Of a DNA stretch of 64,000 nt, positions 8,388-62,274 are shown in pieces (position 1 is the first letter of the stretch; each line of letters opens with the position of its first letter). Where the stretch lies: positions 19,281,359-19,345,358 of the forward strand of contig JAJEKV010000019.1 in NCBI GenBank assembly GCA_021234155.1, read 5' to 3'. Both the position numbers and the translations under genes were made by a program. The notes below the pieces were generated by a model. It had not been told where the DNA came from, ran no database searches, and worked only from the letters and a program-made list of their open reading frames with translations. The stretch is from Isoetes taiwanensis (taxonomy: Eukaryota > Streptophyta > Lycopodiopsida > Isoetales > Isoetaceae).

Positions 8388-10804
8388 TCACCAAGAAAAG
8401 GTGGAAGTGCTTCCGGCGGGGGAAACCAGCAATCGGAAAGTGATCCTCACGGAATGAGGTCGGGCGCCATTATGATAATGAGCAATGAGGTCCCGGGCGT
8501 GTTTGAAGAGCGTCGGGGTGTTGAGCCCTAGGGCGGGATGGGCCTCAATGAGGAAGTGAGAGCGCATCATGTCTTCCGTGGCAGCATGGGCAAATAAGGA
8601 ACAAACCGGCACTCCATGAGAAGGCAAGTTTGAAGACCGAAGGCACTGACGCTGGCATTTGGATTGCAGTGAAAGATTGGACGCTGCCTATTTAAAGAGC
8701 TGACCAGGATGCATTTGAGAGCAAGCACGTAAAACCCGCTTGACGGCAGAATCAAGGATCCGTGAGGTGGCGGATTCTCGCAAGAAGGTGTCAAGACCAT
8801 TAAGAGCATCAGCAGGGCTTTTGCCGCCCACGCCATTACCGATGTAAATCCAATTTTCAGTAGTGTCCAAAGTGGCATTATCCTCCCAATTGAGCTGCCG
8901 TCGACAAATCGGGATCCCACCGGAGATCCGTGGAGATCTGAGGCGGAGTCGACCCAGCGTGGCCATCCATGACCTGCGTCCAAAAGGGAAGACGCCAATC
9001 AGAAGAAAGGAACCGTGGGCGGGGAGGGGCTCCTAAGGAAGCATATGGAGAGGGAATCATGCCCGTGTGCGTGGGTTGCAGAGCCATGTCCCTGAATGCT
9101 TGAACAAGATTTTGATCAAGAGCGTACACCAATGGTCCCATTCTCAAGTAGAGAGTAATTGATAGGCAGGGAGGATTGACCCAACCCGTGGGAATGGTCT
9201 TGCTTTCCAGAAGGCCACGGAGTTGATTGTAGCCTCCCAAGTGCTGCATATATATCTGAGCAAACTCAAGATCATCAGGGTGCTTCAGATTTTTGTTTAC
9301 CTGTTCCAACGTTTCAACCTGCCACAGAGGTAAGTGCTGAGCCAATTCAGGCATGTACTCTTGTTCAAAAGTCTGAGACTGAGCAGGATCCTGGAAATAT
9401 TTGTTGGTTGGTGATAATAACCAAGCAGCATTTGAGTTGCCTTGAAAAACACGATGGGCCTCATCCCGGAATTTATCCTGGAGATCCGCCAGGTAGAAGT
9501 CATGAAAACATAAGCCATAAATTTTGAACAACTCGGAAGATGACTAATTCAGGATCTTCAACCGTGAGCTGATCAAAGACTAAGAGTGCACAAAATAAAC
9601 CCTTGTCTTCTATAGAAAGATCCGGCCAGATTCGAAGGAAGTCCATACTTTTGAGTGGCTGTTGATGAACATTGCCATTGGCCGCGTACCATTTCAAAAG
9701 AAAGAGGTGCCGTCGGGCCACCACATAGTCAAGATAGCTGGAAGGAGTAGAGAAGTCCACCGGGATGTTGGTGGCAATGTCAAGATATCCCTCCTGTTTG
9801 GTTTGGGCCTCCTCGCCAGATTGAACCGCTGGTCGGAGCCGATGTTCAAGGTCACGGATCCGATGCTCTTTTTCTAACAAAAGACGGGACTGATCACGGA
9901 CCCGTTTTCCAGGAAGCGTGGCATGTGAAGAGGATTGCCCCGGGGTATGGAGGCGAAGCGTGGCAATCTCCGCGTCATCGATGACCTTTTGTTTCTGAGC
10001 CTCCAAAAGCTGAGTCTGGAGGGACGTTAACTGATTGGTGAGCGTGGAAAGCTGAGCTTCAAGGGAGGTGAGTCGAGCTTCACGCTCAGTGAGATTTTGA
10101 ACTTGAGGTCAGAATTGTCACAAAGCTTCTGAGTACAAGGTGTCTAGCTTAGCAATGTGTTTTTCCTTGTCACTCGAAGGGTATCTTTGGACTTGTTCTC
10201 TGTTCCAATAAGTCCTGAATTTCAGTTTGGAGCTGCTTCTGCCGACACGTGAAGTAGGCGGGTCCGATCCCCGTTAATCGGTGAGATCTATACGGGCCTG
10301 TAATAGAGCCCGCGTGCTTTTCTTGAAGTTGGGCTTCCGTGGTTTGAACATGGGCAAGGCAGCTTGAAGGTCTCTTTGAACAAAGATCGGAAGCCTCGAG
10401 GGACGCCTGAACACCGATCATGAGAGCCTCCCAGGGACGCATGGAGGCCGCAAGGCGCCGCTTGAACATCTTGCCGGAATTTGTACAGAGCCGCCGAGGA
10501 TGGGGAGGCGCAGGCCCCGTTGCTGCCTTGTCTCGAGATTGTTGAGAGGCATGACGGGAATTGGAAGGCGTGGCCTCAGAGGAAGAAGAGGAGACAGTGA
10601 CATGCGTGGTCTGATGTTGAACAGGACGAGGGGAGGTGTGGCGTGAAGGTACAGCTTGTTGAGTTGGACGCTGGGAATGCAGAGAGCGCTGAGTGGAGGT
10701 ATGGGAAGTGGAAGGGCTCTCAAGAACTGGAAGATAATGACGAATGAGGGCCTGAAGATGGCCACCCACGGAAATTTCAGAGACAGAGGAGGGGGTAGCC
10801 CGAA
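8388..10804 (-). pseudogene. gag-like coiled-coil protein, frameshifted
   Basis: Overlapping minus-strand frames (10,769-10,170; 10,006-9500; 9531-8878; 8998-8388) join into one damaged protein of roughly 750-800 residues. Order seen: a Ser/Thr/Pro-rich N-terminus, a charged heptad-like stretch (QKQLQTEIQDLLEQ; LEKEHRIRDLEHRL), a hydrophobic-rich central part (YLDYVVARRHLFLLKWYAANG, LADLQDKFRDEAHRVFQG), then NWIYIGNG and FLRESATSRILDSAVKRVL. It stops just before the polypurine tract. No zinc knuckle or pol motif is present. I do not recognise the family; a structural gag role is inferred from its place between coding start and polypurine tract. It could also be a captured host gene. Confidence 0.4.
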
Positions 10805-12922
10805 TGCGGTCTACTTCTTGAACCCTGAGGTTGCTTCATATATATTTCTTCATCAAGTTTGCCATTAAGAAATGCTGTCTTGACATCTGTTTGATGAACC
10901 TCAAGATTATAATGAGCAGCAAATGCAAGAAGAATGCGAATGCTCATCATTTTGACTACTGGAGAAAATGTTTCCAAGTAATCAATGCCATATTGCTGGT
11001 TGAAACCCCTCGCGGCAACCAAAGCGTGCTTTGTAGCTGCTGATGGTGCCATCAGGATGGAGCTTGCATTTGTAGACCCATTTGTTACCAACGACCTTCC
11101 GATCATGAGGAAGAGGAACCAAATCCCAAGTGCCATTTTGAACAATAGAATCCATTTCGTGGTCTATTGCCCGCTTTGCCAATGAGGTGCAAAGCACATG
11201 AAATAGCTTCACGATAGGCTGGTGGGTTCACCGATAATAGCAAACACCACAAAACTCCATAATCTTTGGGCATAATTTCGGCATAGAAAGCAAACCTTTG
11301 AGGAGGAAAACGCTTCCTTTTACCTCGACCAAGTTCTTCTTCAACTCCTCCTTGATCAAGATGATCAAAATCACCTCCTGGATCAGATGGATCAAGATCT
11401 CCTCCTTGATTGGATGTGTCAAGATCTGCGTCGTGATCAGGAAACAGGGTCTTTGTAAAGCACTGCAGTCCGAACCGCCGCTGCAGATGCTAGAACCGCC
11501 GCAGTCTTTGGAATATCAGAAACTGAGTCCGATGGATTGGAAGCTATGGCGTCATCTGTTATCCATGCAGAGATATCAAGAAATTCCATATTAGGAGTTT
11601 TTGAACCTTGCTGAAATGTCGAAACATCTTCATGAAAAATAACATCGCGACTAACACAAAGCTTCTTGGTATCCAGATCAATCAGCCTATAACCATGCTT
11701 GCACTGGTCAGAGAAACCCACAAAGATCATTTTCTTGCTGGTATGCTCAAGTTTCTTGCGATTTGCTTTGGGAATAAGCATAAAGGCAGCACATCCAAAG
11801 ACACGCAAGCGAGACAAATTTGGCTTTATGCCAGTGAAGGCTTCTTTCAGAGTCTGATTTTTTCAAAGAACGAATGGGCAATCTATTGAGTAGGTAAACC
11901 GAGTACCTTACCGCTTCAGCCCAAAATTGAATGGGTGCCGAGGATTGAGCGAGCAAGCAACGTGCCATGTCAACAATCTTTGCGATTCTTCCGTTCAAAG
12001 AACGCCATTATGTTGTGGAGTATGAGGCTCGGTAAGTTGGCGCTCAATACCATGATCGACAAAAATGATTGAATGCTTGACTGGTAAACTCTCCACCATT
12101 ATCGATCTCGAGCTTCTTAATCCGATGGGCTACTTGGTTCTCAACAAGCGCTTTCCATTCTTGAAATGGGCAAATGCATCATTTACGCTTCAAGAAATAG
12201 ACCCATGTTTTCCTGCTCAAATCATCAATGAATGTCAGAAAATAATAAGCACCCGAGAGAGAAGGAACATGAGTTGGACCACAAAGATCCGTGTGTACTA
12301 GTTCAAGAAGAGCAGTAGCACGAGAGCCAATGAGAGTAAAGGATCTGCGTTGCTGTTTGCCCAATGCACAAGCCTCACAACTTGCAAGAGTAGGGTGCTG
12401 ATGAAGATCAAAACCGTCTACAAGTTGAGGCAGCTGATTGAGTGCTTTAAGACTGATGTGTCCAAGCCTTTTATGCCACAAATCACAGGTACCATTACCA
12501 GCAGCTACAAGAACAACTTGGTCAGCATATTCTTGGCCCAAATGGTAGAGATTACCCGTACGAATAGCACGAGCAAGGCTTTTTCCTGTAACTTTGCTGC
12601 GAACAATGCGGTCATCACTATCAAAGGAAACTATTGTGCCCATATCAGTAAGACGTGCAACAGAAATCAGATCTTTACGCAAAGTAGGAGCATACATTAC
12701 CCCTTTTAGAGTGAAATTACCAAGACTTGTGGGTACTTGAATGTCACCCATTCCGCAGATTTGATGCTCACTATTGTCGCCAATTTGAACAATGTGATTG
12801 GAAGAGGTAGGTCTAAAATTTTCAAACCAATCTTTGTGCCAACTAATATGAGCTGTAGCACCAGAATCCATGATGAATTTGATAGAGCGAGGTCTGCTGC
12901 GGTATGATTGCCTTTCTTGCAA
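10805..12922 (-). pseudogene. copia pol polyprotein (protease-integrase-RT), broken
   Basis: Protease: FIMDSGATAHISWHKDWF (active DSGA, near 12,870). Integrase: the GAG-pre-integrase zinc finger with HKRLGH...CEACALGK (about 12,490-12,350), the core opening HTDLCGP, TFIDDLSRKTWVYFLK, then after frameshifts FWAEAV and VFGCAAFMLIPKANRKKL (about 11,930-11,760). RT: LVAARGFNQQYGIDYLETF and TDVKTAFLNG (about 11,020-10,880). The YVDD box and everything after it are lost at the junction near 10,805. Such a protein would cut the polyprotein, copy RNA and insert the cDNA. The frameshifts near 12,180, 11,830, 11,440 and 11,150 mean this copy is dead. Confidence 0.85.
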
Positions 12923-13708
12923 TAGTCACAAACCTGCTGCTTGGATGCTGTGCCTTTGCTGTCAGCACCCTTGAAGCCGCTGCTGTTACTGTTATTCTTC
13001 TTTTTCTTAGCCTTTTCATTCCCTTTTGCATAGGATTTAGGCTCAGAATGACCTGCAAAGAAAGCATTGTGCTCGTCTTTGATAATCCCAGCATCCTTCC
13101 TCATCATGATCTCCTCCTTGACGGAAGTGATTGCACGATTGAGATCCATGTCGGCAATTTGCATGAGATTGCTGCGCAAGGCATGGAAAGAATTGGGTAA
13201 GGATCTAAGAAAGAAAAATAATTGCAATGAAGGAGAGATCTTATTCTCTTCTCCAGAGGCTTCAATCTGCCGAAAGATGTTCTTCATGCAGTCTGCGAAT
13301 TTATCAAGACTCTCGGTCTCTTCCCAGCGCATATTCACCACTTCAGCATACATACAAATGCCCAATTTGTGTATGGGTCTTCTTTTCATGCTCTTGGATG
13401 AGAGCATTCCATAAATCATGGCTGTTCTCCTTCTGAACCTCATCAAGAAGAGATTCAGCAACAGAAAGCCCAATCGTAGCCATAGCCTTATCATCCCGGC
13501 GCTGCCAAGCATCAAGAACAGATTTATTCTTGCCATCTGCTGCAAGCTCGGGTGCTAGTTCTTGGCCACTAACAATTCCCCAAACTCCTTCAGCCTTAAG
13601 AATGAGAGTCATTCTTCTCTTCCATTGCTGGAAACCTGTGCCATCGAAGATTTGAATCACACGACCGCCAGGGAAGGTAATCTGGTTGTAGCTTGCATCC
13701 TTCTCCAT
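12850..13708 (-). pseudogene. copia gag, frameshifted
   Basis: It starts at ATG 13,708 (MEKDASYNQITFPGGRVIQI), about 40 bp inside the primer binding site. It carries the usual copia gag features: FDGTGFQQWKRRMTLIL, WQRRDDKAMATIGLSV, SHDLWNALIQ, then after a frameshift near 13,340 a segment with LDKFADCMKNIFRQI and LPNSFHALRSNL. A CDYCKKGNHTAA zinc knuckle follows but lacks its last cysteine, and the frame changes there into protease. These proteins form the virus-like particle. Not functional as read. Confidence 0.8.
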
Positions 13709-13746
13709 TGCTGTGTTGATCTTGAATCAATCTCAGCACACCTAGT

Positions 13747-14103: not shown

Positions 14104-14324
14104 CCTTCTTCAATTTCTTGTTCATGTCTTGTTATATCTGGCAATTCTAGAGAGAGGTAAAGAGAGAGAGAGAGGCCTCGAACACAGTGAGCTGAGAGAT
14201 CATGAGAGATGATTTGAGAGACAAAATGGAAGGAAAGATTATGAGAGAGATGCGAGAGTCCACTTAGTGGACTCTCGCATTTAGAGATAATTCGCCCCTA
14301 ACTGCTGTTAGGGGCATTTCCATT
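14104..14324 (+). mobile_element. Harbinger fragment and left end of copy H1
   Basis: 14,104-14,150 matches the 3' coding end of the Harbinger transposase (compare 31,618-31,680) with a small internal deletion. From about 14,160 a GA-rich run leads into the element's left end, which matches 28,300-28,455 of copy H2 (GAGAGATCATGAGAGATGAT, then ATTCGCCCCTAACTGCTGTT). The match stops exactly at CCATT where the tyrosine-recombinase element is inserted and resumes at 19,929. Confidence 0.7.
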
Positions 14325-14327
14325 AAT

Positions 14328-14460
14328 CGCATCGATCCGAGCCATCGGATCGCCATTCTGGGGAGGGATGAGCCACTATATAAGGCTCTTTCCCCTTCAG
14401 CAGCGGTTATCGGCGTCTTCTCACAGCAGCTTCCTTCCTTCTCCGAGCTTCCCTCCCTTT
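14328..14460 (+). repeat. A1 terminal repeat with TATA box
   Basis: 133 bp nearly identical to A2 at 18,930-19,062 (a few substitutions). It starts CGCATCGATCCGAGCC. TATATAAG at 14,377-14,384, with a pyrimidine-rich stretch and TCTTCTCACAGCAGC about 30-50 bp downstream, looks like a core promoter for the element. Confidence 0.75.
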
Positions 14461-17400
14461 CCAATCCTTTCTTGCCCTTTTGCTGATCTGATCCCTTTCC
14501 TGTGACTAACGATAATTTCTTACTAAACTTTTCCATACGTTTGTAGCAAACATCTGCTCAATTCCTCTTCTTCTTTTGTGATTTCCATTGCTGTCTTCTA
14601 GGAGCTCATGCTCATCTACATCGGATTGCGCAAACTACAGGAGCATCGAGTACCTCTGTTGTTGGATTTAGATTCATACATTATTTGATGGGGTAATGCT
14701 ATTGTTGGATTCGTGCATGCTTTCCGCATGTTTTTCTGTTCTAACTTCTTATTACATGGTAATTTGCGGAAGCATCCGATAACTTGTTGTGAGATTTCGT
14801 TTCCCTCGATGATACGTTATTGGATTTGTGTTACACATTGTCATCGGCCAGGTTCATCATTGCATCATGGTTTCATCATTGCGGCAGTTCAATGCTCTCG
14901 GTGTCACAAAAGTTTTCCTTCACCCAATTCTTTTGTCTTGTGCGATCGCGATAACCCCATCTTGCGGTGAGTATTTTTGTTTGTTTCATTCGCTTGATCT
15001 GCAGCCCACAATCACCAGTTTTCTTCATATTCGCCATCGAATCAGATGAATCGAGCCAGATCTGGCTCTGTATTCCTGAGGTAGGCCGTTGCCCATCGCT
15101 TATCTTCCTCTAATCTCTGATCTGCTTTGCTTTTTCGATGGGCTCCAAATTTGCACAATTCTGCTCTTGTCATTTTACTCAGTCGCCTCCTGCTTGGATC
15201 TCCTTCCATGGCGTTCCAACGGTTTTTATTTTTGCGGATCTCGTGGTACCCGGGTTCGTTTTACGCTATTCCTTGTCTCTTATTCACACCAGACTAATCT
15301 TCTACTCTCCCCCTTGGGCTCCAGACCTTGCATGCATTCTCATCCCCTACCCTGGAATCAGAGCAGCAGATCCGCCAATCTTTTTCTATGCTTCTGTTCG
15401 CTGGGCTTCTCCGATTTTTGTTTTTTTTTTTTAGGGGCGAGCGACGGAAGGAGCGGTCGGATTCTGGGTTCGGCATGCAGCTTCTGCTGCCGGCAGGGAG
15501 CTCCCTGGGCTGCGCAAATCCGCCATGCAACATTCGGTTGGTTTTTGCTCTCCTCTCTTTCTGCACCTGCCTCATCAGAGCTGCTTTCGGTGAAAGAAAA
15601 CCTCTTCTAATAGTTCTCCATGCCCTGTTTTGCTTATAACATAACCCTGTCTGCTTCTGACGTAAAGGCTTTTCCTTTTTTGTGAGCTCCAAACCTTTAC
15701 ACTGGTATAGGCACATTTTCCTTAGGTTCCTATTTATCTTATGCCCTTGTATTCATTATCATGGCTTTTTAATAGCCTTTGATATTTCTAATGGTTATAT
15801 AGGTTATCCTATGCCCCTTTACATATACACTTGGAACAGCATTAAGAGTAACATTTACATTATATTTTCCATCATTTAGGTGGACCCTCCCCATGCTTGC
15901 TCCATATCGGTATGTCATCTCCGTTGTTTACGATATTGTTACCTGACTTGTGTATGCCATCTTAGTTATTTTGGATATTGCTGCATGGCTTGTGTTCCAC
16001 GTATTCTATATGTTGGGGGTTTTTGCTTGGGGTCATGTCGATGATTGTTGTTCACATATTTACTATGGTAAGTCCCTTTGTAGCATTCTTTTACGATTAT
16101 TGAGAGCTGACGATTTTCTTGTCTTCGAATGGGATCAATGGAAACATTTTTTGCATCGTATGGTGCCTACTCCATTTTGTCTTGATACATGCATCTTTTC
16201 TATTTGTTAAATGATTTTTATTCTCTTCGAATTGGTTCTTTATTGGCTATCCTAGGAATATGCTATATCCTATATGTTTGGTGTTTTTTCTAACTTTCTG
16301 CTAGTTGACACATTCAATTGACGAACTTGCCTCATGGCTCTACGTTGATGGACCGATATCTCTGCCGCCATTTCATCATGTGGTGGCCCACTCAATTTTA
16401 TCTAGATACATGAATGTGGGTATTTCTCATTTTCTATAGAGGGATTGGTTAGTTGTCATGAATTGCCGCTTCTAGACTGTGTCGAGATATGTCCCCAATA
16501 GAAACAATGTAGAGACAATGTAGCGACCATGTCTCAGTCATTATTTTTTGTAGGAGTCTCTTGTTTTCCTCCCTTTCTCATTGACTTCGGGTATTTCTAA
16601 CCTACCCACCACCATAACTTTGGTTAACATTGCATTTGCTTACCCCTTCATTTTTGTTAAGCCTAAGGCTATTGTCATGGCTTCCCATCTTGTTTTGGTT
16701 CAGGGATCCTTTTTCAATCCATTATTTATATTTGCATTTAATTTTGTGTTTGGTATATCCTCATTCACATTTTTGCTTATTGTACCCCTTCTATTCTATT
16801 AGCTGTTTATCATTTACACATATTCATTTGACCCAAGATATTTAGGGTTTGCAATTGGGACTTGATTTTCTGCTTAGTCTGCTTGCTACGTTATCCGACT
16901 CATTTGTTCCTACTCAATGGAATTTGTTCCTGCTGATAATTTTTTGGGATTTTGCGGCCTCATTTATTGTCGGACATTCATCTGTTCTAACCCGTAGTTT
17001 GCCTACAATTGTTATTTAAATTTATCATGCCAGGACATTTTTTAGCACATCATTTTCGCGATTTTGGTAACAGAGATTTTGTTGGGATGGGTGTTTCAAT
17101 TTCCAGGGTTTGTATCTGTATTGGATTCTGTCAGCACACATCTTTAATTTGAGGCTCGTCTTGTTAATGATTGCAAAATCTTGTTCTAAGCTTGTTTGAG
17201 TATCTTCGACGGAAGGCTATGCTCTTTGGGCTTGGGCACTATTTTCGTTGTTTCTGCTAAGTCCCATGTTACCTATGCAATTATATACCATTTCCTTAGC
17301 TAACAATTTATTCTAGACCATTGTTTAAGGGGATTTGTCATGCAATTGGATTAGGTGCCAATTTTTCCTTATTCCATTTGTCTCCAGAACACTTTATATG

Positions 17401-18558
17401 CGGGGATTTTTACGTTCTTAGGGAACCTTGGAGCTGCGCATGAGGTAATTTATTGTTTGTTAATTTCATTTGGGACAGGGACTTTTTTGCGCTCCTTTTT
17501 GCTAAAGTTGTTTGGGATATGTTTAGTAGCCATTACAATACGTTGTAGGTTCATTATGTCATTTGAGTGATTTCTTCGTATTGTTCTTCCGTCGTTTCGA
17601 GTTTTTGATGCTATTGACATGGGTTGTATGTGGCAACTTTGAGCTGTATCTTTGTGGACATGTATGGTGGACCTTATGGACATTGAGCTTTGAGTATCAG
17701 GGGGGAGCGTGTCTTCTTTTCTTTTGATTAGAATCTATTCTATTCTATTCTATTGGGCTTTCTCACATGTTGTATTGCATACTTCTTTTGCATATTTTCT
17801 ATTGGTTTACGATCATTGGCTCTATCTCAAATTTGTTTCTAACTTTTCCATGTATGCATGTATTGGGTTGTCATTTTTTGTGTTGAGATTTGCAAGTGGA
17901 TTTGTCTAGTATCCGTTTACATTTGGTGCGAGTTCTTATTCTGTTTTGCTACCCTTTGGTTGGACATTTTGCTTCATACTTGGTTTTCATGCATTTCCTT
18001 TGTTGTCCTGGTACTCTTGACCTCTTGATATGTTATGTTATGGATTTGTCATCTCTCGATATGCCCATTTATTTGTCCAGAGTAAGTCTTTGTTAATGTT
18101 TATCATGCGTTGCCTTATTTGTACCTACATATGGCATGCTATCATTTTCCACATGACAAGATGTAGTTGTTGTGTTCCCATTACCCATTTCATCACTTGG
18201 TTATTGGTCTCACCTCGTTATTCCTCCCCGACCCTTGGCCCTCTCAACCTCCATCTCCTCGATATCCTTGGCCGTAACTTTTACCTTTGACTTGGTTTTC
18301 ATACTTGACCTCCTCCCTTCAAGCTTCACCATCTTACCATTCTATCGACTTAGGTCTCTTTTCCCTATATCTGCGATGTCTTTTGGCTAGGAGCAGCTCA
18401 CGCGATCTTGCATGATGTGCTCGTTCTCCGTAGTTGCTTGATTTCCTTTCTGCCCTCTTGTCTAGCGCTTGCCTCTTACCATTTCACTGCTGGACTTCGG
18501 ACATTGGTATACTTTGTTTTATTCTCTGGCCTAGGGCACGTTTTTTAGTCGGTATCTC
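14461..18558 (+). other. interior of the tyrosine-recombinase element, T-rich
   Basis: About 4.1 kb of T-rich, intron-like DNA. Possible splice signals are present (for example GCGGTGAGTATTTT near 14,966 and a T-run ending TTTTTAG at 15,434). Short open frames such as 15,089-15,610 have no domain that I recognise. I looked for DIRS-type reverse transcriptase motifs (a YLDD/YVDD-like box in a coding context) and found none that I would defend. The (TATTC)n run at 17,729-17,755 is a simple repeat. Confidence 0.45.
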
Positions 18559-18870
18559 TTGCAAATGGAATTAAAGGTGACATTGGCATTGTTTTTCCTG
18601 GTGAGAATTGCATTTAGGATATTGTTGGTCTCTTATCTATGCACTTATTCACACCTAGTACATAGTTATCCTACGGCTATAGGCTTGGACCCATCTCTTT
18701 ATGGTACGCATTCTGCTCGTCGCGGCGGGGTTTTGGCAGCTGCGGCTCGCGGGGTTCCACATGATGCAGCTCGTGCTCACGGTCGCTGGCGTTCCTCTTC
18801 TTCTCACTCTCGCTACGTGCTTCGTGACCCGTCTCAACATTTGGAGGTTTCGCGGCGGTTGGGCTTATAG
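18559..18870 (+). pseudogene. C-terminal tyrosine recombinase domain
   Basis: The frame encodes a DPSLYGTHSARRGGVL segment, then AAARGVPHDAARAHGRWRSS and SHSRYVLRD. This is the C-terminal half of the DIRS/Ngaro/Crypton-type tyrosine recombinase: the H-x-x-R box (THSAR), the GRW motif standing in for the second His/Trp, and the nucleophile Tyr in RYVL. The enzyme would cut and rejoin the circular cDNA and target. The first catalytic Arg and the N-terminal core are not visible in the upstream 500 bp, so this is a partial exon or a remnant. The first ~45 codons of the open frame are probably intron. The stop lies 20 bp before repeat B1, the usual place for the recombinase gene. Confidence 0.72.
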
Positions 18871-18889
18871 TTAGGAAGTTCTCTGGTAG

Positions 18890-18928
18890 TCGGCCGGTTT
18901 TGTGTCTAGTGCCAGTCCCTTCCCAGAA
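18890..18928 (+). repeat. B1 repeat
   Basis: 39 bp beginning TCGGCCGGTTTTGT and ending CCCTTCCCAGAA, 2 mismatches from B2 at 19,892-19,930. It joins A2 directly through AAT. Confidence 0.78.
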
Positions 18929-18929
18929 T

Positions 18930-19062
18930 CGCATCGATCCGAGCCATCGGATCGCCATTCTGGGGAGGGACGAGCCACTATATAAGGCTCTTTCCCCTTC
19001 AGCACCGGTTATCGGCGTCTTCTCACAGCAGCTTCCTTCCTTCTCCGAGCTTCCCCCCCTTC
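18930..19062 (+). repeat. A2 repeat with TATA box
   Basis: Second copy of the 133-bp A repeat; TATATAAG at 18,979-18,986. Differs from A1 by few substitutions, suggesting a fairly young insertion. Confidence 0.75.
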
Positions 19063-19146
19063 CCGCCCTGCTCAGGGGGACACGTCTGTTTCATGTTGTT
19101 CACTTTGCATTTACTATAATTCATTTTTCATATGTTGTTTTTATTT

Positions 19147-19323
19147 CCACCTTGAGGGTGATGCTATTTATTTCCACCTTGAGGGTGATGCTTTTTTTTT
19201 TTTCACCTTGAGGGTGATGCTATTTTTTCCACCTTGAGGGTGATGCTATTTATTTCCACCTTGAGGGTGACGCATACTTAATTGCCACCCGCTGGGTGAT
19301 GCTTTTCCACCTTCTGGGTGCTG
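19147..19323 (+). repeat. array of seven small hairpins
   Basis: Seven units with the form CCACCTTGAGGGTGATGC, near 19,147, 19,173, 19,203, 19,229, 19,257, 19,284 and 19,307, separated by T-rich spacers (step about 26-28 bp). CACC and GGGTG in each unit can pair, giving small stem-loops. The last two units vary the loop (CACCCGCTGGGTG, CACCTTCTGGGTG) and keep the stem. They lie between A2 and B2. Confidence 0.75.
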
Positions 19324-19891
19324 ATTTTTATGTTCTAATTTGCTCTTCTTTGCAGGGGTTGATTGTGCGGCTTGCCTTGTCCATGCCATGCATGTTAGTT
19401 CTTTCTAACCATTTACGGGTATTTTTAGGGTTCTTTTGAGTTGCTGCAGGTTTTTTGCGGTCGTTTGGGGGTCCTGCTTTTCGACGACCGCCATCGACCA
19501 CGTCTCCGCCGTCTCTCGGCTTCCGCCATCTTACGGGGTCTTGCTAGATTTGTGTTATGACACATCATCTTTTCGGTTCTCCGGGCAACACATTCGGGGC
19601 TTACGCCCGTCCTCACGGGATCCTGCTATATTTGGGTTCGCCGTCCCTCCATCTTCTTCGGTTTTCCAGGCATCACATTCAAGGTTGTTGGCGACCATTT
19701 CTCATTAGGGTTTTCCTCGAAAACCCGAAAGGGTGGGGTTTTTTATCCCGGTGAGAAGTTGTCGCCATTGCCCTTCTATGTTGCCTGTGCACATTTCTTT
19801 TTATGGGGTAGTCCGATATTGTTCCTATGGTCGGCTACCCCTCTCTATTCTTCAAACCATTGTATACTGCTGCTGTGATGAATGACAAGCC

Positions 19892-19930
19892 TCGGCCGGT
19901 TTTGTTTCTAGTGCAAGTCCCTTCCCAGAA
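19892..19930 (+). repeat. B2 repeat, right end of the element
   Basis: 39 bp matching B1 and ending CCCAGAA. The following bases continue Harbinger copy H1 as in H2 (28,463 onward). Confidence 0.78.
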
Positions 19931-20274
19931 TAAAATATTCGTTAAGGATAACGTCCCGAAAAATTTATGGAGCCAATTTTTGGAGGCCGGAATTTTTGAC
20001 CTTAATTTCGGCCTTTGTTCAAGGTGGGCGGGCTCCAAGAATCGAAACTCCAAAATTGTTCCCTCTTAGCATCGCATTCAGCACCAATTGTGAATCCGGT
20101 AAGCATTTCTTGCATTTCTTTAGATCAATTTGTGAAATGCTTTGTTAATAGCTACATTCTTAGCAACTGCCTACTTGATAAATCAGGCACAAATTGTCTC
20201 AAGAACATGACGAAGGCAACCAGATCGTCTTTGCCGAATGCTAAGAAGCCTTTTGTTCCCCTAGGACCGAGAAA

Positions 20275-21381
20275 TTGGCTCCAAGAAGAACTAAGAGGAT
20301 GATTGGATCAGTTTCCCAATCTGTGGCCATTGAGATAAATTCCGAGCCTGCAAGGGCTTCCAATTGCAATCTAAGGGGAAGGAAGAGGGATCAGCCAGAA
20401 GATGGATTACCTAAGGTTCAATCTGAACCCCTCCCCAATGATTTAGCCTTGGTTGTGCACGAAAGCAATTCTGTTGCTCTTAACCGGGCCAAGAAAAGGA
20501 AAACTCCTGTAGATTGGTCGGACAATGCAATCTCCACCATGCTTGCTTTGATGAAGGAGTACAAGGTGCATAATAATGGAAGTATCAATCTTTCTTCAAG
20601 CCAATGGAGAGAGATTATGGTGAAATTGCAACCCACAGTTCATGGCCTTGAAGACTTGAGACAGTTAAGAAACAAGTGGGATAAATTGCAAATAGAATTC
20701 AGGGATGAGAAAAAAGCATCCGAAAGAACAGACTCTGAGCCATCTAGTTGGCCATGGTTTGTAGCTATAGAAGATCTAAAACAAATGAAAGGGACATTCC
20801 AGGTGCAGGGGATGATGGGGAATTTGGGGCCGAGGCATTTGAGAATGCTGGTATGTTCCCAAACACATTGATGCCTTCTATGAGACAATTGGAACAAATG
20901 CATCTTTTGTGGAACAAGAATTCATAAGCATTGCAGATGATAACCCTGTCAGCCCTGTTGCAAATGAAGGAAATGGTAACAAAGATAATTCAAGTGCTCA
21001 GGAGAAAATTCCAGCAAAGATACTCCAAGTACTTTCAATCCTTCTAACACCAGTCCTCGGTCTGCTGCATGCAATCAGCCTGGGGTTAGCGGTAAGCCAA
21101 CAACAAAAAAGAGATCTCTGGTTCACATTGATGAAAAAGTTGCAGCTGGGATATCGAACATGGCAAATAGCTTTGGAGAGAATGAAAAAAGGAAGCTTGA
21201 TTTCATAAAAGAAGAATCTGTTAAAAAACATGAATTGATCAGGGTGTCGGTGTCCATGAGATCAGCTAATACTTTGAAGATTGCTCAATCAATGGCTACA
21301 ATGACAGAAAACATATGCGAAATGACAAAGGATACTCTACTGGAGATTGCTAAACTTGCTACATCGAAGCAAACAAATTAA
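20275..21381 (+). pseudogene. Harbinger Myb/SANT-like protein, copy H1 (frameshifted)
   Basis: The start MAPRRTKRMIGS is followed by a basic segment (RGRKRDQ, RAKKRKTPVDWSD), then a Myb/SANT-like helix set with SSQWREIMVKL and LRQLRNKWDKLQIEFRD (about residues 75-150). The C-terminus in H2 is an acidic linker and a helical tail. PIF/Harbinger elements carry such a second protein, which helps bring the transposase to the ends and into the nucleus. In H1 the domain itself is intact, including the Trp lost in H2. A 10-bp loss near 20,785 relative to H2 shifts the frame, and further small deletions near 20,865 and 21,008 follow. The remainder (20,909-21,381) is readable only in other frames. Confidence 0.8.
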
Positions 21382-21706
21382 TATCAATTTCAGAGGTATT
21401 CTTCTTACTTTTGTCCTGTACTGTCGTTTTCAATTTTTTTGTCTTTCTGTTATTTTTTTGAGCTTCTGCAAGATAGTTAGAACAGTATGTTCTGTTTAAG
21501 TTCAGCTTCAAGTTTGTAAATGATTAGAACAACTTTCATGTGCTATGGGGATCTAATATCGATTTTAAATCTAGTATGATATAATATTCGTGATCCTGAC
21601 TACATAAATAGTATAATTTCATAAAGGTTTCATACGACGTCCCTTAAAATTCCATAATGCATGTCTCTATTCCTGCGCACTCCAATTTATTGTAAGCTGC
21701 TCGAAG

Positions 21707-21907
21707 GTGGCAAGGCGCAAGGTTCTGGTCTGGCACCATTTCCCTGTTTACTCTTCTTCTAGTGAGGATTCTGCTATGGCCGTGGCAGCTAGTTCGACTT
21801 CAAGCAGCCTGACAGTCGAATCGGCCGAGATTGTGGAGCTCCAGCACAGGAGCTTCCATGCTAGTGTGAGCCAAAAATGTCAACAAATGGAACAACATTT
21901 ACATTGA
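21707..21907 (+). pseudogene. passenger frame in Harbinger H1, truncated
   Basis: Starts MARRKVLVWHHFPVYSSSSE and runs on with a Ser/Ala-rich stretch and ELQHRSFHASVSQ, then hits the H1 deletion joint. It is the truncated counterpart of the 102-codon frame at 30,254-30,562. No domain recognised. Confidence 0.4.
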
Positions 21908-22681: not shown

Positions 22682-23448
22682 TCTTTATACTACTATATTA
22701 TAAAATTATCTTGTAAGTATGTATGTCATGTATCAAACATGGACGGCTCAGATTGTGCCAAGTGGCATGCCAAGTGCTTGTTTTAATGCGAAAAGGTGCC
22801 ATAATCACTCTTGAAAAGGTGTGTCGACCACATGGAGAAATTTTTGAAAGACAACAATTTTTTGTTTGGTTTTTTTCCATTCTAGCTATGCCCCCTCTGA
22901 AGCCTTCGTTCTTTCTATTCCGGCGTCCTGCCCTGTCCAATAATAGGAATTTCCAGAAATTCATCATAAAATTTACATATAGACGAGTATGTTTTCATTC
23001 AAGTCTTTCTGGAGTATGGAGCCATGGGAGTAAACCCATTTCAGCATACTTTATATACAGTAATTGTGCATTGTTCCGGCGATGGAGAATTAAGCAGCCG
23101 AAATAAGGAAGCCCAAATGGGCTCTATGAGGAATTCCCTGTGGCGGTTGGAAGGTCACCAAGACGATGCCATTGTGCAATTCGCGGCTCCGCTGTTTTTG
23201 GTTTTTTGGAATATGCCTGAAGATATCCTGGTTCTTTCACTCAAAAGGAAATTGCTTAGTTAGCGTTCTGCTCGAAGGTGGGTGGGCAAAGGAACTGTCT
23301 GCGATTTCTTTATATAGGCACTTTTTGAATAGAAAAATGGTCGTGCATTCTTGTGGATTTCTCTGTACTTGGGATATTGAGGTTAGCCAATTTTTTAGTC
23401 ATACAGAGAGTGGGTCAGAGCACAAGATCATTGTAGAGGAACAAACAA

Positions 23449-24800
23449 ATGAAAAGCTTGGCATCAGCACGGCAAGCTCATGCTAAGCTTCTTAAGGCCC
23501 ACGTTAAGCCCAACATCATTTCATGGAACAATCTTATGAACATGTATGCCAAGTATGGTTACTTAAAGGCTGCATGTGAAATATTTGATAGGATGTTGGC
23601 ACATAACGTGTTTAGTTGGACTATACTAATTACAGGATATGTACAAGATGGAGGAGATACTGAGGCACTTCAATGTTTTTTGCAAATGCAACAGGAAGAT
23701 GTTCAGCCAGACAAGGTAACCTTTGTTAGCTGTGTAAGTGCATGTGTTATGCTTCAAGATTTAGCAAATGAAAAGCTGGTGCATTCCAACATCCTGAAGT
23801 GCCAATGTGGTTCATATATTCCTTTGGTGAATAATTTAATTAACATGTATTTTAGATGTGGAAACATACAAGATGCTTGCCATATATTCGACGTGATACA
23901 TGTGCGTGACGTTGTGGCTTGGAGCGCCATGATTGCAGGATATACCCATCATGGACAAGGTAGAGAAGCACTCAAACTTCCAGAACATATACAACTTGAA
24001 AACATTAAGATGAACAACTTTGTATTATCTGGGCTTCTGATTGCATGTTGTGCCGTTGCATCTCTTTCATATGGTAAATGGTTACATTGTCACGTTTTAC
24101 AAAGTGGCTCTGAAGCTGATTTTATTTTGTCAAATGGTCTGGTTGACATGTATACAAAATGTGGAAGCATCTATTATTCTTGCATTGTCTTTGACAAGTT
24201 GTCTATACAAGATGTTGTATCATGGACTGCAATAATTACTGGATTTGATTATTCTTTGGATGACAAAGAGGGATTTAAACTTTTTCAACAAATGCAACAT
24301 GTTGGCGTGGAACCAAATGAAATAACATTTTAAGGCATCATGTGTGCATGTGCCAATGAGGCCGCTCTAGGACAAGGTAAATTTGTTCATACCATGACCT
24401 TAAAGCCAAAATAGTTTTGGACCATTATGTAGGTAATGCTCTCATCGATATGTATGTAGAGTGTCAAAGCATGCGTGACGCCTGCAAAATCTTTGACCGA
24501 TTGTCTGGGCGTGATGTTGTGTCATGGAGTGCAATGATCGCAGGGTCTATACAGTTTGGTCAGAAGAAAGATGTGCTTAAGATATTTAAACACATGGATC
24601 CGGAGAATGTGGAGCCAAGTATAGTAACTTACATAATTGCAATGAATGTATGTGCAGTTTTAGGAGACTTTGAAATGGGAAAAAACCTTCATGCTAAATT
24701 TATTGAAAGTGGTCAAGAATTGGATCTGTTCCTTGGAAATAGCCTTATTGATATGTATGCTAAGTGTGGGAGCCTGGAGAGTGCCCTCCAAGAAAGCTGA
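23449..24800 (+). pseudogene. PLS-type PPR protein fragment captured in Helitron
   Basis: About 440 codons of pentatricopeptide repeats: NNLMNMYAKYGYLKAACEIF, DVVAWSAMIAGYTHHGQGRE, NGLVDMYTKCGS, DVVSWSAMIAGS, DMYAKCGSLESAL and others, roughly a dozen 31-36-residue units alternating P, L and S types. Plant PLS-class PPR proteins bind organelle RNA and often guide C-to-U editing, but no E, E+ or DYW tail is present here. Damage: TAA at 24,331-24,333 where Leu is expected, a one-base frameshift near 24,400, and truncation after 24,790 where PLATZ intron sequence begins. No signal for an organelle targeting peptide is apparent at the 5' side. It is a captured gene fragment, not a working gene. 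Confidence 0.88.
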
Positions 24801-28290: not shown

Positions 28291-28797
28291 TGAGACAGAG
28301 AGGGAAGGAGGGAGAGAGCGAGAGAGAAGCCTCGGCCACATGTGAGCCGAGAGATCATGAGAGATGATTTGAGAGACAAAATGGGAGGAGAGATTATGAG
28401 AGGTGAACTCTCGCATTTAGAGATAATTCGCCCCTAACTGCTGTTAGGGGCGTTTCCATTAATAAAATGTCCGTTAAGGATAACATCCCAAAAAATTTAT
28501 GGAGTCAATTTTTGGAGGCCAGAATTTTCGACTGGCCTCTGTTCAAGGTGGGCGGCCTCCAAGAATCGAAGCTCCAATATTCTTCCCTCCTAGCATCGCA
28601 CTCAGTGCCAATTGTGAATCCGGTAAGCATTTCTTGCATTTCTTTAGATCCATTTGTGAAATGCTTTGTTAATAGCTACATTCTTGGCAACTGCCTGCTT
28701 GATAAATCAGGCACAAATTGTCTCAAGAACATGACGAAGACAATCAAATCGTCTTTGCGAATTCTAAGAAGCCGTTTGTTCCCCTAGGACCGCGAAA

Positions 28798-29922
28798 TTG
28801 GCTCCAAGAAGAACTAAGAGGATGATTGGATCAATTTCCCAATCTGTGGCCATTGAGATAAATTCCGAGCTTGCAAGGGCTTCCAATTGCAATCTAAGGG
28901 GAAGGAAGAGGGATCAGCCAGAAGATGGATTACCTGAGGTTGAATCTGAACCCCTCCCCAATGATTTAGCCTTGGTTGTGCACGAAAGCAATTCTGTTGC
29001 TCTTAACTGGGCCAAGAAAAGGAAAACTCCTGTAGATTGGTCGGACAATGCAATCTCCACCATGCTTGCTTTGATGAAGGAGTACAAGGTGCATAATAAT
29101 GGAAGTATCAATCTTTCTTCAAGCCAATAGAAAGAGATTATGGTGAAATTGCAACCCACAGTTCATGGCCTTGAAGACTTGAGACAGTTAAGAAACAAGT
29201 GGGATAAATTACAAATAGAATTCAGGGATGAGAAAGAAGCATCCGAAAGAATAGGCTTTGAGACATCTAGTTGGCCATGGTTTGAAGCTATGGAAGATCT
29301 AAAACATGGTGTGACAAATGAAAGGGACATTCCAGGTGCAGGGGATGATGGGGAATTTGGGGCCGAGGCATTTGAGGATGCTGGTATGTTCCCAAACATA
29401 TTCATATCTGATGCCTTCTATGAGAGAATTGGAACAAATGCATCTTTTGTGGAAGAAGAATTCATAAACATTGCAGATGATAACCCTGTCAGCCCTGTTG
29501 CAAATGAAGGAAATGATAGCAAAGATAATTCAAGTGCTCAGGAGAAAAATTCCAGCAAAGATACTCCAAGTACTTTCAATCCTTCTGATACCAGTCCTCG
29601 GTCTGCTGCATGCAATCAGCCTGGGGTTAGTGGTAAGCCAACAACAAAAAAGAGATCTCAGGTTCACATTGATGAAGAAATTGCAGCTGGGATATCGAAC
29701 ATGGCAAATAGCTTTGGAGAGAATGAAAAAAGGAAGCTTGATTTCATTAAGAAAGAATCTGTTAAAAAACATGAATTGATCAGGGAGTTGGAGTCCATGA
29801 GATCAGCTAATACTTTGAAGATCGCTCAATCAATGGCTACAATGACAGAAAGCATATGCCAAATGACAAAGGATACTCTACTGGGGTTTGCTAAACTTGC
29901 TGCATCGAAGCAGACAAATTAA
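28798..29922 (+). pseudogene. Harbinger Myb/SANT-like protein, copy H2 (one nonsense codon)
   Basis: Same protein as in H1 and open from MAPRRTKRMIGS to KLAASKQTN (374 codons) except for TAG at 29,128-29,130, which replaces the Trp (TGG in H1) inside the Myb-like helix SSQWREIMVKL. Downstream: LRQLRNKWDKLQIEFRDEKE, an acidic region (PGAGDDGEFGAEAFED), a Ser/Thr/Pro linker with KPTTKKRSQ (possible nuclear signal) and a helical tail ELESMRSANTLKIAQSMATM that may mediate dimer or transposase contact. That only one change breaks a 374-codon frame shows recent activity of the family. Confidence 0.85.
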
Positions 29923-30253
29923 TATCAATTTCACAGGTATTCTTCTTACTTTTGTCCCCTGTACTGTCGCTTTCAATTTTTTTTTTTCTTTCTGTTATTT
30001 TTTTGAGCTTCTGCAAAGTAGTTAGAACAGTATGTTCTAATTAAGTTCAGTTTCAAGTTTGTAAATGATTGGAACTTAACTTTCATGTGCTATGGGGATC
30101 TAATATTGAATTTAAATCTAGAATGATATAACATTCCTGATCCTGACTACATAAATTGTATAATTTCATAAAGGTTTTGTACGACGTCGCTTAAAATTCC
30201 ATAATGCATGTCTCGATTCCTGCGCACTCCAATTTATTGTAAGCTGCTCGAAG

Positions 30254-30562
30254 ATGGCAAGGCACACAGTTCTGGTCCGGCGCCATTTTCCTGTTTACTC
30301 TTCTTCTAGTGAGGATTCTGCTATGGCCGTGGCAGCTAGTTCGGCTTCAACCAGCCTGACCATCGAATCGGTCGAGATTGTGGAGCTCCAGCACAGGAGC
30401 TTCCATGCTAGTGTGAGCCAAAGAGTTATTCTTGGCTACATGTCCATGGAAGAAGTTTTTGTGGAGGCTGAATTGCTTGCATGGACTGAGCAAGCTCCTT
30501 TCCGGCAGAGAGCACATGTAGAGCTCATCAATATCAAACATCATGGAAGGTGGTGTCTTTGA
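30254..30562 (+). CDS. 102-residue passenger protein of Harbinger H2, unknown
   Basis: Starts MARHTVLVRRHFPVYSSSSE, then a Ser/Ala/Thr-rich stretch, IVELQHRSFHASVSQRVI, MSMEEVFVEAELLAW and KHHGRWCL. The first 55 residues are conserved in H1 (21,707). No family recognised and no membrane segment or zinc motif seen. It could be a third element gene, a captured host fragment, or a chance frame over a conserved region. No promoter signal is evident. Confidence 0.3.
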   Translation: MARHTVLVRRHFPVYSSSSEDSAMAVAASSASTSLTIESVEIVELQHRSFHASVSQRVILGYMSMEEVFVEAELLAWTEQAPFRQRAHVELINIKHHGRWCL

Positions 30563-33271: not shown

Positions 33272-33903
33272 GAAGTGAAGTGAATTGTATTAATTCATCT
33301 TGTCAGACCATCAGGTCTATAAGACCAATTACAGAAATATGTACATCAAGAAACAAATATCATGTCATCCGGCAAGAACTCATCATCGAGTAACTCGCCA
33401 TCGCTCTCTGCCATCTCATCTCCACTAGATTCAATAATCTGTTTGATTGCCACCTCTCTCAAATTCAGCAACTCCAACAAAAAGCTTCCAACTATAGTGG
33501 CAGGCATATCAAAAAACTGCAGTAAGCTAGATGCCTCAATGTTGAATCGGGCTCTCAAAGACTGGTATGCTGGGCAGACTATTATTGCATGTTCTTCATC
33601 CTCTACATCATCCGAACCGCATGCCCTGCAGGTCCGGTATTCACGTTGTATGTTGTACCATCTGTCGACTTCTATACTCAAGTGGTGGGCGCTAAGGCGC
33701 ATCCTACAGATGGCATGCCTCTTAGCCAAGGAGATATTCTCATGCAGATATCCCATTTCTCGCAGCATAGGGTTCATTTTCTCCCGGTAGTGTGACATTT
33801 TGATTCCAGGTGCATGCCAAATTCTCTCTCGCACTTTTTCTTGCACCCAATCCCTAATCCTGTCCCTGTTGCTTAAGCTCCCTAACCTGCTTAGATATGT
33901 TAA
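33272..33903 (-). mobile_element. 5'-truncated LINE, last ~600 bp (family 1)
   Basis: Minus strand. The frame 33,846-33,346 encodes the end of ORF2: VRERIWHAPGIKMSHYREKM, ISLAKRHAICRMRLSAHHLS, then a C-x2-C...H-x4-C knuckle (CRACGSDDVEDEEHAIIVC) and an acidic tail. The 3' untranslated part has the hairpin GGTCTTATAGACC (minus sense; 33,314-33,326) and ends in GTGAA/TTCAC repeats at 33,272-33,287. Very close to the copy at 63,435-64,000. The insertion touches the right end of Harbinger H2. Confidence 0.88.
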
Positions 33904-55164: not shown

Positions 55165-56250
55165 GTCCCCATCTCGCCCACGAACCCTGCAGTTTTTACA
55201 ACACAATGGTTTCAAATGCTTTTGTTTTTCTCTGCATGCACATGGTCCACAGACACCGAATATTAAATTTTTCCTCTTTATGCTTGTACTCTTGTATTAT
55301 TGATTCCGGATCTTTGGATCCAAGGCATGAAATATCCAAAGATCTACAATCTTGGGCCTCTAACCTAACATTTGATGGGGTCAAACGATGATGTGGCTCT
55401 ATTTTTTAGGGGCCCCTTAATCATGGAAATTGCATTAGACCTGGTCTTTTGTACAGGGATACAAGTACAAATATCCTCACTAGATTTAGAAACCATTATG
55501 GCACCTGCACAGAATCGCAAAGGAGATGCATCCTGGGGATTTGAACCTCTCAAAATCCAGAAAACACCATTCCGGATAAGATTCATGACAAATTTATAAG
55601 GGGATTCGAACCTCCTGCAAAAATAGGCAGCATCGGGCTTACAACATCAAAGTCCTGTGATTGATCAACCGTCTAGTAACACAAAAACCAAAACCTAGCT
55701 ATGACAGCAGAAACACCTTTGTATGCAGTGTAAGTTGTGCCATGTAAAACTAAATCACAGATTCACGCAATAGAAAGCAAAATAGGGCATCTGTCTTTCC
55801 ATTATTGAACTCGGAAGTTTTGTTCAAGATGTTAGAGCGACAAGGATTGTAAAGCTGGCCTTCTTCATCAAAAACATGCATCTTCTAAAACCGGCCTTCT
55901 GGACCTCGATAACAACATCCTAGCTTTCAAAAACCTGGCCAAAGCTAGTTGCTTCAAAGACTGTAAGAAAGCTCAGCTGCGAATCCACGCAAATTGGCCC
56001 ACGCCTCTCAGATCACCACCACCAAGTAGATCAATCCCTCTATACACCAAATTATCCACTACATCACTGCTCTCAAACACAATCACAACCATGTTTTTTG
56101 TCAATAACTTGATAGATTGAAAAGGATAGAGCTAAAGAAACCATAATAAACGAGCCAAACAAATATGAAATTGCAAAAATTCTAGATTATCACCAATAAA
56201 GTATCCAATCATTATACATGAAGATAAATCCTCAGCACATCTGATGGTCC
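55165..56250. other. spacer with weak tRNA-like boxes
   Basis: Minus sense GGAGGTTCGAATCCCC (about 55,595-55,612) and GAGAGGTTCAAATCCCC (about 55,535-55,552) resemble pol III B boxes. No tRNA cloverleaf closes around either. Otherwise no gene seen. Confidence 0.3.
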
Positions 56251-56254
56251 ACAC

Positions 56255-57497
56255 GACTATCTAGGTATATGGTTTTGCTCTTACTATATGCAGATGATGT
56301 GGTTTTGCTTTCACGTAACGTAAATGGATTACAGAAGCATCTAGATGCATTGTACTCTTTCTGCAATGTCAAAAGCATGCATGTAAATCTGGCTAAGACA
56401 AAAGTCGTAGTCTTCGGAGCATCCAAAGTCGATCATGTTAAGATGTATTATAATGATGAGTTAGTGGAAGTTACAGATCATTACAAATATATCGATTTGG
56501 TGGTAGATAAAAGCCCCAATTGGAATCAGGCAGTAGACCAAAAAATTAATGCAGAGCTTAAAGCCTTATATGCAATGCAGCGTCACTGTGTAAGGGCTGA
56601 AATTTGGAATTTCAGCACGAAAAAGATGCTATACAGTACATTGATAAGATCTGTCATATTGTATGGTTGTGAAATTTGGGGGCGAGGGTTAGCTTCTGAT
56701 ACATGGAAGAAGGTAGAAAAAGTACAAAAGAGGTTTCTCAGAACAGAGCTAGGGGTCAAGGTGCAAACCCATATGATATGATGCTAGTTGAGTCTGGAAT
56801 GTTAACACTTGAAATGATTTGCCCAGGATGGCTTTGGAGGAGACTCGTGCTAAAGGTTGGTTTGTAGAGGTGGAATTGTGGATGGCAAAATGGGGAATGC
56901 ATATGCAGGACTTACTATCAAATAAAGATGACATAGAAAAGTTGGTGTCAGGAAGCTTTTTTCGTTGCAGCTGGAGAGATGGGGGAGTAAAGAAAGAATT
57001 TTATAGAACTCAAATCAACCCTAGTATGCAGGCAGGTAAATATCTGGAAGAACACATAAATACCAGACATAGACATGCTATTTGCAGAACTGGTTGAGCT
57101 CTTTTCACTGAACTTGAGGTCGAGGTTGGCAGGTGGAATAATATTCCACATGAGTTATGCCTTGCCTCTGTGGAAGTGCTAAAGTCGATGAATTGCATGT
57201 CCCTGTTGGACTGCCCCGGCGATATATAAATGTCGAGAGAAGCATCAAATTTATGCGCATACACTTGGTAGAGTTTTTTAGCCTTCGAGGCATAACTATG
57301 GGACGCATATATAGAGGATGTAATGGATTGTAGAGAGAAAAACTTAAGATGTTGAATATAGCTGAACCGGGTGAGTTGGATGAGGGAGGGACTATTGCAT
57401 TTCCATCCGAGGATGCATTAGATGAATGGTTGTATGGATGATGTACTTGCAGGATGTCCTATAGACGGCCGGTCTCCACTGAAATAATAAATACAAT
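56255..57497 (+). mobile_element. LINE-A, 5'-truncated (family 1)
   Basis: The frame 56,269-56,781 encodes the second half of RT: LLLYADDVVLLSR (active-site YADD), HVNLAKTKVVVFG, DHYKYIDLVVDKSPNWNQAV, then SVILYGCEIWGRGLASDTW and KVEKVQKRFLRTELGVKVQT. The rest (56,800-57,340) is frameshifted, with RHRHAICRTG recognisable. The 3' tail contains GTCCTATAGAC (57,456-57,466) and AATAATAAATACAATTTC before a CT microsatellite. Confidence 0.85.
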
Positions 57498-57498
57498 T

Positions 57499-57617
<119 letters not shown>

Positions 57618-58903: not shown

Positions 58904-58924
58904 GAACTAGAGACCATCAGAGTC

Positions 58925-62180: not shown

Positions 62181-62244
62181 GAATCTATATTATGTAATTG
62201 GTCTTATAGACCTGATGGTCTCAAAAAGACGCAATAAAACACGT

Positions 62245-62274
62245 CACTTCACTTCACTTCACTTCTCTCTCTCT
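62245..62274. repeat. (TTCAC)n(CT)n tail of LINE-B
   Basis: Four TTCAC units followed by five CT units, then LINE-C begins with GGCTGAAAAAATACAGG. LINE-B also begins with GGCTCATGG after CT. Confidence 0.85.

Follow-up and report, generated by a model that had tools for sequence, protein, structure and literature searches.

How an element that encodes a tyrosine recombinase (YR), carries its repeats in split order and leaves no target duplication is joined to its host DNA is the question raised by a stretch of 64,000 nucleotides from the lycophyte Isoetes taiwanensis (contig JAJEKV010000019.1, positions 19,281,359 to 19,345,358; hereafter the window), in which such an element occupies positions 14325–19931. 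The window copy is in all probability a non-autonomous deletion copy of a high-copy family of YR retrotransposons with split direct repeats. We hold with the same high confidence that the joint between its internal repeats B1 and A2 is the attachment site, and that this joint is built as two stems of inverted repeats, a conserved architecture in which the crossover triplet lies at the inner end of the outer stem.

The element, which reads along the plus strand like all its features given below, begins with A1 (14325–14459), the first three bases of which are the left core AAT (14325–14327) and which is 97.8% identical to A2 (18927–19061) over 135 nt (E 1.7e-61). B1 (18890–18929) matches B2, the right end (19892–19931), at 95% identity over 40 nt; the two close with the core AAT at 18927–18929 and the right core AAT at 19929–19931, respectively, and B1 and A2 overlap only in the AAT at 18927–18929. 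The insertion lies in a host repeat encoding a DDE_Tnp_4 transposase (Pfam, E 1.7e-12), for which we use PIF/Harbinger-like as a label only, and a second, element-free copy of this repeat is found in the window at 28308–30422 (plus strand), with the target triplet AAT at 28461–28463. The left flank (14154–14327) aligns to 28308–28463 of the empty copy at 83% and the right flank (19929–21875) to 28461–30422 at 93%; when joined, the flanks read ...TTTCCATT-AAT-AAAATATTCG and the empty copy ...TTTCCATT-AAT-AAAATGTCCG, with one AAT common to both. A preliminary description of this DNA had located the outer ends, the internal joint and the empty site, and had claimed that AAT is all they share at the crossover. 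Repeat and flank alignments bear out these positions to the base, and both the B1/A2 overlap and the comparison of joined flanks with the empty copy confine the sharing to one AAT. Within A1 lies TATATAAG (14377–14384), present also in A2 at 18979–18986, which we take to be a TATA-like box; comparable TATA-like stretches occur in the joints of many relatives.

Other insertions in the genome (1,658,258,908 bases searched) define the exchange at the level of single bases. Both ends were sought for 20 insertions, three of which were set aside as their right ends could not be located, and joined-flank queries were run for the window, for the remaining 17 and for five more, 23 paired insertions in all. 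Empty sites were recovered for 11 of these (the window, nine of the 17 and one of the five), including for C1036 one copy 100% identical over 304 bases, and the target triplet at the 11 sites was AAT in nine, AAC in one and ATT in one. The insertion with target AAC (C1078) has AAT as left core and AAC as right core, and that with target ATT (C959) has ATT on the left and AAT on the right. In these two, the third base goes with the 3' partner and the second with the 5' partner, placing the exchange between them, AA^T. Since a 3-bp target duplication is expected to leave equal triplets on both sides, the unlike sides of C1078 and C959 contradict it, and it was ruled out on this ground. Of the two points put forward earlier for checking, that all targets contain AAT and that they lack duplications, the second stands; the triplet is usually AAT (9/11) and may also be AAC or ATT.

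Larger samples of ends follow the same asymmetry. The genome contains 114 exact left ends of the A1 kind and 628 matches to the right-end pattern, some of the latter being joints, including B1 joints with a mutated next base (e.g., C610:35018, the joint of L059). Of the first 100 left ends listed, 96 have T as third base and 31 begin with something other than AA, whereas of the first 100 right-end matches listed 2 depart from AA and 2 from the T in third position (left versus right, first two bases, Fisher P 1e-8). The near-constant T at right ends implies that the target nearly always supplies this base, so that the nearly strict target requirement, as judged from these ends, is a T in third position, and the first two bases can derive from the target. 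Further preferences are seen around the triplet: T precedes it in 47 of 69 AAT left ends (G being excluded by the pattern), and in 27 of 35 distinct right flanks a T stands at the seventh position after it, compared with 28% for the AAT triplets of the window (P 3e-9, for a position chosen after inspecting 12). All 24 non-joint left ends in the match tables begin at one of the first three bases; these 24 include two duplicate pairs, each from one insertion.

The joint itself forms a two-stem hairpin (18915–18971), identified by fold computation and by comparison with divergent families. Its outer arms (18915–18929 and 18957–18971) set AAT opposite ATT, and its inner arms (18935–18942 and 18947–18954) are separated from them by an asymmetric internal loop, CGCAT/CC, so that the whole reads GTCCCTTCCCAG-AAT / ATT-CTGGGGAGGGAC around CGCAT / CC and CGATCCGA-GCCA-TCGGATCG. 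Its stability corresponds to z values of -5.86 as RNA and -5.81 as DNA, and in neither case did any of 200 shuffles reach this stability. When the window was scanned for AAT/ATT sites in which 9 or more of the 12 outer pairs form, the joint was the sole site with an inner stem of at least 6; the other six matches came from a simple repeat at 53400, and five shuffled windows yielded none. In a subfamily, GTCCTTTCCCAG on the B side pairs with CTGGGAAAGGAC on the A side, and divergent families realise the same plan in other letters, with CCCATCCTAGG-AAT facing ATT-CCTTGGATGGG around an inner stem GGTTCTATTGC, GTCTCTCACCAG-AAT facing ATT-CTGGGGAGAGAC, and CCTTTCCCTAG-AAT facing ATT-CTAGGGAAAGG. 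Among nine hand-chosen representatives, 7 of the 12 pairs that make up the outer stem beyond the triplet show changes on both sides that compensate each other, and two subfamilies have fixed T.G wobble pairs. From 58 stretches 33 distinct joints were parsed, 21 of them with an outer-stem score of at least 10. A further 20 stretches gave the fold in 13, of which 11 form 10 or more of the 12 outer pairs together with at least 6 inner ones, a combination reached by 0 of 390 shuffles; these 13 folds reduce to four sets of arms, with seven, four, one and one members, and are therefore not 13 independent cases. Throughout the families that have the fold, the asymmetric loop adjoining the triplet recurs, and the crossover triplet and its complement occupy the same position.

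Several observations count against the hairpin. Eleven of 108 cells are unpaired among the nine chosen representatives, 12 of the 33 parsed joints score below 10 (including the misparsed L095 and L097, the former of which folds in the divergent set), the joints of L035 and L055 were not parsed, and 2 of 390 shuffles reach 9 outer and 5 inner pairs. Among 13 divergent stretches, L097 has no such fold and L093 has a poor outer stem, and a complete fold is missing from 7 of the 20 further stretches, of which L125 and L127 end after the left half, and L128 and, by this search, L131–L134 show none. The last four form a separate YR clade 58–60% identical to the second YR query; most members have a CAGCATTGT...TGGAGATG block in common, and the AAT hairpin is absent from the roughly 185 bases that follow their YR gene.

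Between A1 and the joint, the window copy consists of a T-rich interior (14460–18675) without recognisable domain, followed by the 3' part of a YR gene. The interior up to 16000 is found again in other copies in the genome, in a search whose query was 14325–16000. The longest frame of the copy (15080–15607) has no Pfam match, and inspection of the frames by eye revealed no reverse transcriptase (RT), in agreement with the preliminary description. The YR part (18676–18870, about 64 residues, YGTHSARRGG...HGRW...RYV) retains the HxxR, HGRW and Tyr motifs and has its stop immediately 5' of B1. Taken alone it has no Pfam match, and it is through its relatives that it becomes recognisable as the C-terminal YR domain originally reported. 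The upstream YR motifs, the LRISE Arg and the Lys, are missing; homology to the YR gene begins only at 18676, so the copy lacks the first catalytic Arg and could be moved only in trans, if at all. Two copies that share the interior (C1034:20117122 and C963:19437769) also carry the end of the YR in short frames of 62 and 76 amino acids, which suggests a replicated non-autonomous lineage.

As to the extent of the family, the terminal piece 18880–19931 gave at least 48 matches when used as genome query (40 candidates scored of 3500), and the 61-residue YR end at least 150 (150 scored of 1412 candidates), 21 of these 150 in frames of at least 320 residues. Eight places among the 40 scored start at A2 and not at B1 (L024, L025, L030, L034, C8, C1067, C941 and C1056:245473), and are read as solo A-B units, some of them shortened on the right. 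Relative L071 carries RT (RVT_1, E 1.5e-6 and 4.5e-4) and RNase H (RVT_3, E 0.0022), both below the curated cut-offs, and a YR (Phage_integrase, 29.5 bits against a cut-off of 27.1), all upstream of the same joint. The search for full-length relatives with RT and RNase H, put forward with the preliminary description, was thus successful, and the idea that the window copy is a non-autonomous relative of Ngaro- or PAT-type elements is sustained. No methyltransferase match was obtained in six translated pieces of L071, in which the frame of RNase H runs to 6515 and the exon for the YR begins at 6585, leaving no space for such a domain between them. The frames upstream of RT in L071 are called Gag-like by position only. 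In an alignment of relatives the YR retains the LRISE Arg, HSK Lys, HSARR, HGRW and Tyr, presumably its catalytic residues, except that L072 lacks HGRW. Outside the genome, the YR gave a single weak match among PDB sequences (Tre recombinase, E = 1) and weak Xer matches only in NCBIfam, and queries with the RT and YR of L071 produced 7 and 6 pattern matches in IMG/VR viral contigs, none of them confirmed. The assignment of the family to the YR-retrotransposon order has good support. The family combines features of Ngaro/VIPER/PAT grade, namely split repeats with the joint, YR and RT/RNase H (in L071), and triplet insertion without duplication; the absence of a methyltransferase domain, in L071 only, is a feature of Ngaro/VIPER rather than of DIRS/PAT.

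RT and RNase H of L071 lie in an intron-like interval, between a donor GAAG/GTAAG (4069/4070) that follows the upstream frame and an acceptor TTTTTTGGCAG/CTACC (6584/6585) that precedes the YR. In L072 the two outer parts are fused at exactly these points into one frame of 534 residues, the YR part of which is altered around HGRW. With up to 3 mismatches, donor sequences were found in four of the loci compared (L044, L045, L052 and L071) and acceptors in six (L047, L049, L055, L056, L059 and L071), and a genome-wide search under the same limit gave the spliced junction a single time. Splicing thus rests on one retrocopy together with conserved donor and acceptor sequences, and the simplest reading of these sequences is that alternative splicing would join the YR to the upstream frame, one spliced RNA having been reverse-transcribed and inserted. 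The element had been described as possibly intron-rich, a term that applies only in the limited sense of one such interval holding RT-RNase H in relatives.

Comparison with known systems, based on the available passages of the cited papers, brings out both kinship and divergence. Ngaro and VIPER elements have the repeat order A1-[ORFs]-B1A2B2, the ORFs being open reading frames (PMC8547959, PMC6681497), and solo A-B repeats are reported for the Ngaro of Cafeteria (PMC8547959). The present family resembles them in repeat order, RT-RH-YR gene order (RH, RNase H), solo A-B repeats and the lack of a detected methyltransferase, and differs in its occurrence in a lycophyte and in the location of RT-RH in an intron-like interval, with one spliced copy; the passages in question make no mention of a two-stem joint, and the word 'hairpin' is found 0 times in the available text of PMC8547959. 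PAT elements (Pat1, TOC, kangaroo) are assigned to the DIRS group; it is the lack of a methyltransferase that separates Ngaro and Viper from this group (PMC3266345, PMC4157794). PAT elements share the split direct repeats and are known from green algae; by domain content they would differ from the present family, in which no methyltransferase was found. Some PAT elements have an inverted YR (PMC3266345). In locus L069 (C1054:5296000-5304500) a YR frame of 330 residues adjoins oppositely oriented end sequences, in a rearranged or nested copy. DIRS1-like elements use a 3-bp triplet, most often ATT, that is common to circle junction and target, and produce no target duplication (PMC3266345). Triplet integration without duplication is the same here, ATT being the complement of AAT, whereas in DIRS1-like elements the terminal repeats are inverted, not split and direct, and a methyltransferase is present. 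In its architecture the joint bears a striking resemblance to the attC site of integrons, in which only the AAC and GTT of the R boxes are conserved as letters, the remainder being a matter of structure (an unpaired central spacer, extrahelical bases and a terminal structure), and the folded bottom strand of which recombines with a duplex attI site (PMC2727003). Both folds vary in sequence and are conserved in structure, carry complementary triplets where the outer stem ends (AAC/GTT there, AAT/ATT here) and an unpaired spacer, and recombine with an unlike partner site, here a weak one. In contrast, attC is bacterial and unconnected with retrotransposition, extrahelical bases were not identified in the present joint, and single-strand use, proved for attC, is only inferred here. 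The comparison concerns what the joint may work like; it does not claim that the joint is an attC site or that the enzyme is an integron integrase.

A mechanism consistent with these data would start with transcription from the TATA-like box in A1 and lead to a complementary DNA (cDNA) circle with a B-A joint, the YR being supplied in trans for the window copy. The YR would recombine the joint with a weak target, preferably TAAT and often with a T seven bases on, by an AA^T exchange giving a left end of target NN plus element T and a right end of element AA plus target T, without duplication. Exchange in attC falls between the A and C of AAC. The form bound by the YR could be either a folded single strand or a duplex, and that it acts on a folded single strand is a hypothesis open to test. 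A fuller version, in which the folded single-stranded cDNA joint undergoes one AA^T strand exchange with a weak duplex target, as an integron cassette does, host replication resolves the product, and the YR is fused to the Gag-like frame by splicing out RT-RNase H, is put forward tentatively and falls somewhat short of probable. That only 1–3 bases are shared, and that all 24 left ends start within the first three bases, argues indirectly against a staggered two-strand exchange. Such an exchange is what would be expected if the hairpin reflected a dyad-symmetric duplex binding site, the YR binding the inverted arms, an account that is doubtful and yet must be taken seriously. YR sites are generally inverted repeats, inverted sites bound by a protein would show covariation of their arms just as well, and the fixed T.G wobble pairs of two subfamilies may be compatible with this account. 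However, the outer arms stand 27 nt apart between AAT and ATT and not 6–8 bp, the asymmetric loop next to the triplet is recurrent, and a staggered exchange with 1–3 shared bp would leave stretches of mismatch and in many cases displace the left end by several bases, unlike the 24 of 24 seen (with their two duplicate pairs). A duplex reaction always resolved in one and the same way is a possible alternative.

An RNA function of the hairpin, in strand transfer during reverse transcription, in packaging or in 3' end formation, seems unlikely: the joint lies within the expected transcript and folds well as RNA, but such a role does not predict that the crossover triplet and its complement should keep the same position in the fold. 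Far less credible still is that A and B are pieces of ordinary long terminal repeats (LTRs), the alternative named in the preliminary description, or that the element is a DNA transposon with a 3-bp target duplication. AAT does flank most insertions on both sides, as such a duplication would, and solo A-B units look like solo LTRs; yet the unlike triplets of C1078 and C959 are predicted by crossover and forbidden by duplication, the repeats stand in A1...B1-A2...B2 order with the joint, and the enzyme is a YR. An LTR retrotransposon, with long terminal direct repeats and a target duplication of 4–6 bp, was accordingly rejected. The preferred account, that of a YR retrotransposon inserting through the B1-A2 joint, has several points to contend with. 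For 12 of the 23 paired insertions, the 40 places scored in each search contained no empty site; in the search with 17 queries most of these places stem from one repetitive flank. The empty copies for C1078 and C959 are related and not allelic (87% and 98% identity). Only left ends with CGCATCGATCCGAGCCATCGG intact and without G in the position preceding the triplet were counted, and some of those that are not AAT (AGAT, GAC) may represent joints that have mutated. RT-RNase H of L071 is split over three frames, and two tested frames upstream of its RT have no Pfam match. No circle, transcript or protein has been seen, the basis being sequence.

The remaining features of the window concern the element and its surroundings. 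Tandem 'CCACCTTGAGGGTGATGCT' repeats (family D2, 6 copies) occupy 19144–19334 on the plus strand, inside A2-B2. The host repeat contains a near-perfect palindrome of 31 bases (14250–14280) near the insertion, and directly to its left lie remnants of a Copia-type LTR retrotransposon (several frames, by eye, 10777–13726, minus strand). Interrupted pentatricopeptide-like repeat frames (by eye) are found at 23437–24800 (plus strand), and partly duplicated remnants resembling a long interspersed nuclear element, with endonuclease and RT frames (by eye), at 56245–63733. A second copy of the element (G000:C1007:19358713-19363982) is located about 13 kb past the right end of the window, in opposite orientation and with the same left flank, and the region is therefore probably an inverted duplication; window positions 33336–33903 match 63431–64000, inverted.

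The joint and the intron-like interval set this family apart among YR retrotransposons. The AAT rule is not new, since triplet use without duplication was already known for DIRS1-like elements. A literature search, mostly judged without full text, found no account of a foldable attC-like joint in YR retrotransposons; one on DIRS and Isoetes found a single paper, on Gypsy elements, and one on spliced introns in DIRS or Ngaro elements nothing comparable by title. The word DIRS has 0 occurrences in the main text of the I. taiwanensis (PMC8566536) and I. sinensis (PMC10541799) genome papers, and DIRS-labelled repeats are listed for the fern Ceratopteris (PMC6890710). The present analysis documents an abundant YR-retrotransposon family in a lycophyte, whose splicing device would separate YR from RT expression. 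To our knowledge, the joining of cDNA to the genome by YR retrotransposons (the DIRS order) has never been shown biochemically. With a crossover resolved to the base, a defined attachment site of strong structural conservation and many natural variants, the choice between single-strand and duplex recombination becomes directly testable in this family, and, if the former is true, the folded-site chemistry of integrons would be linked to eukaryotic retrotransposons.

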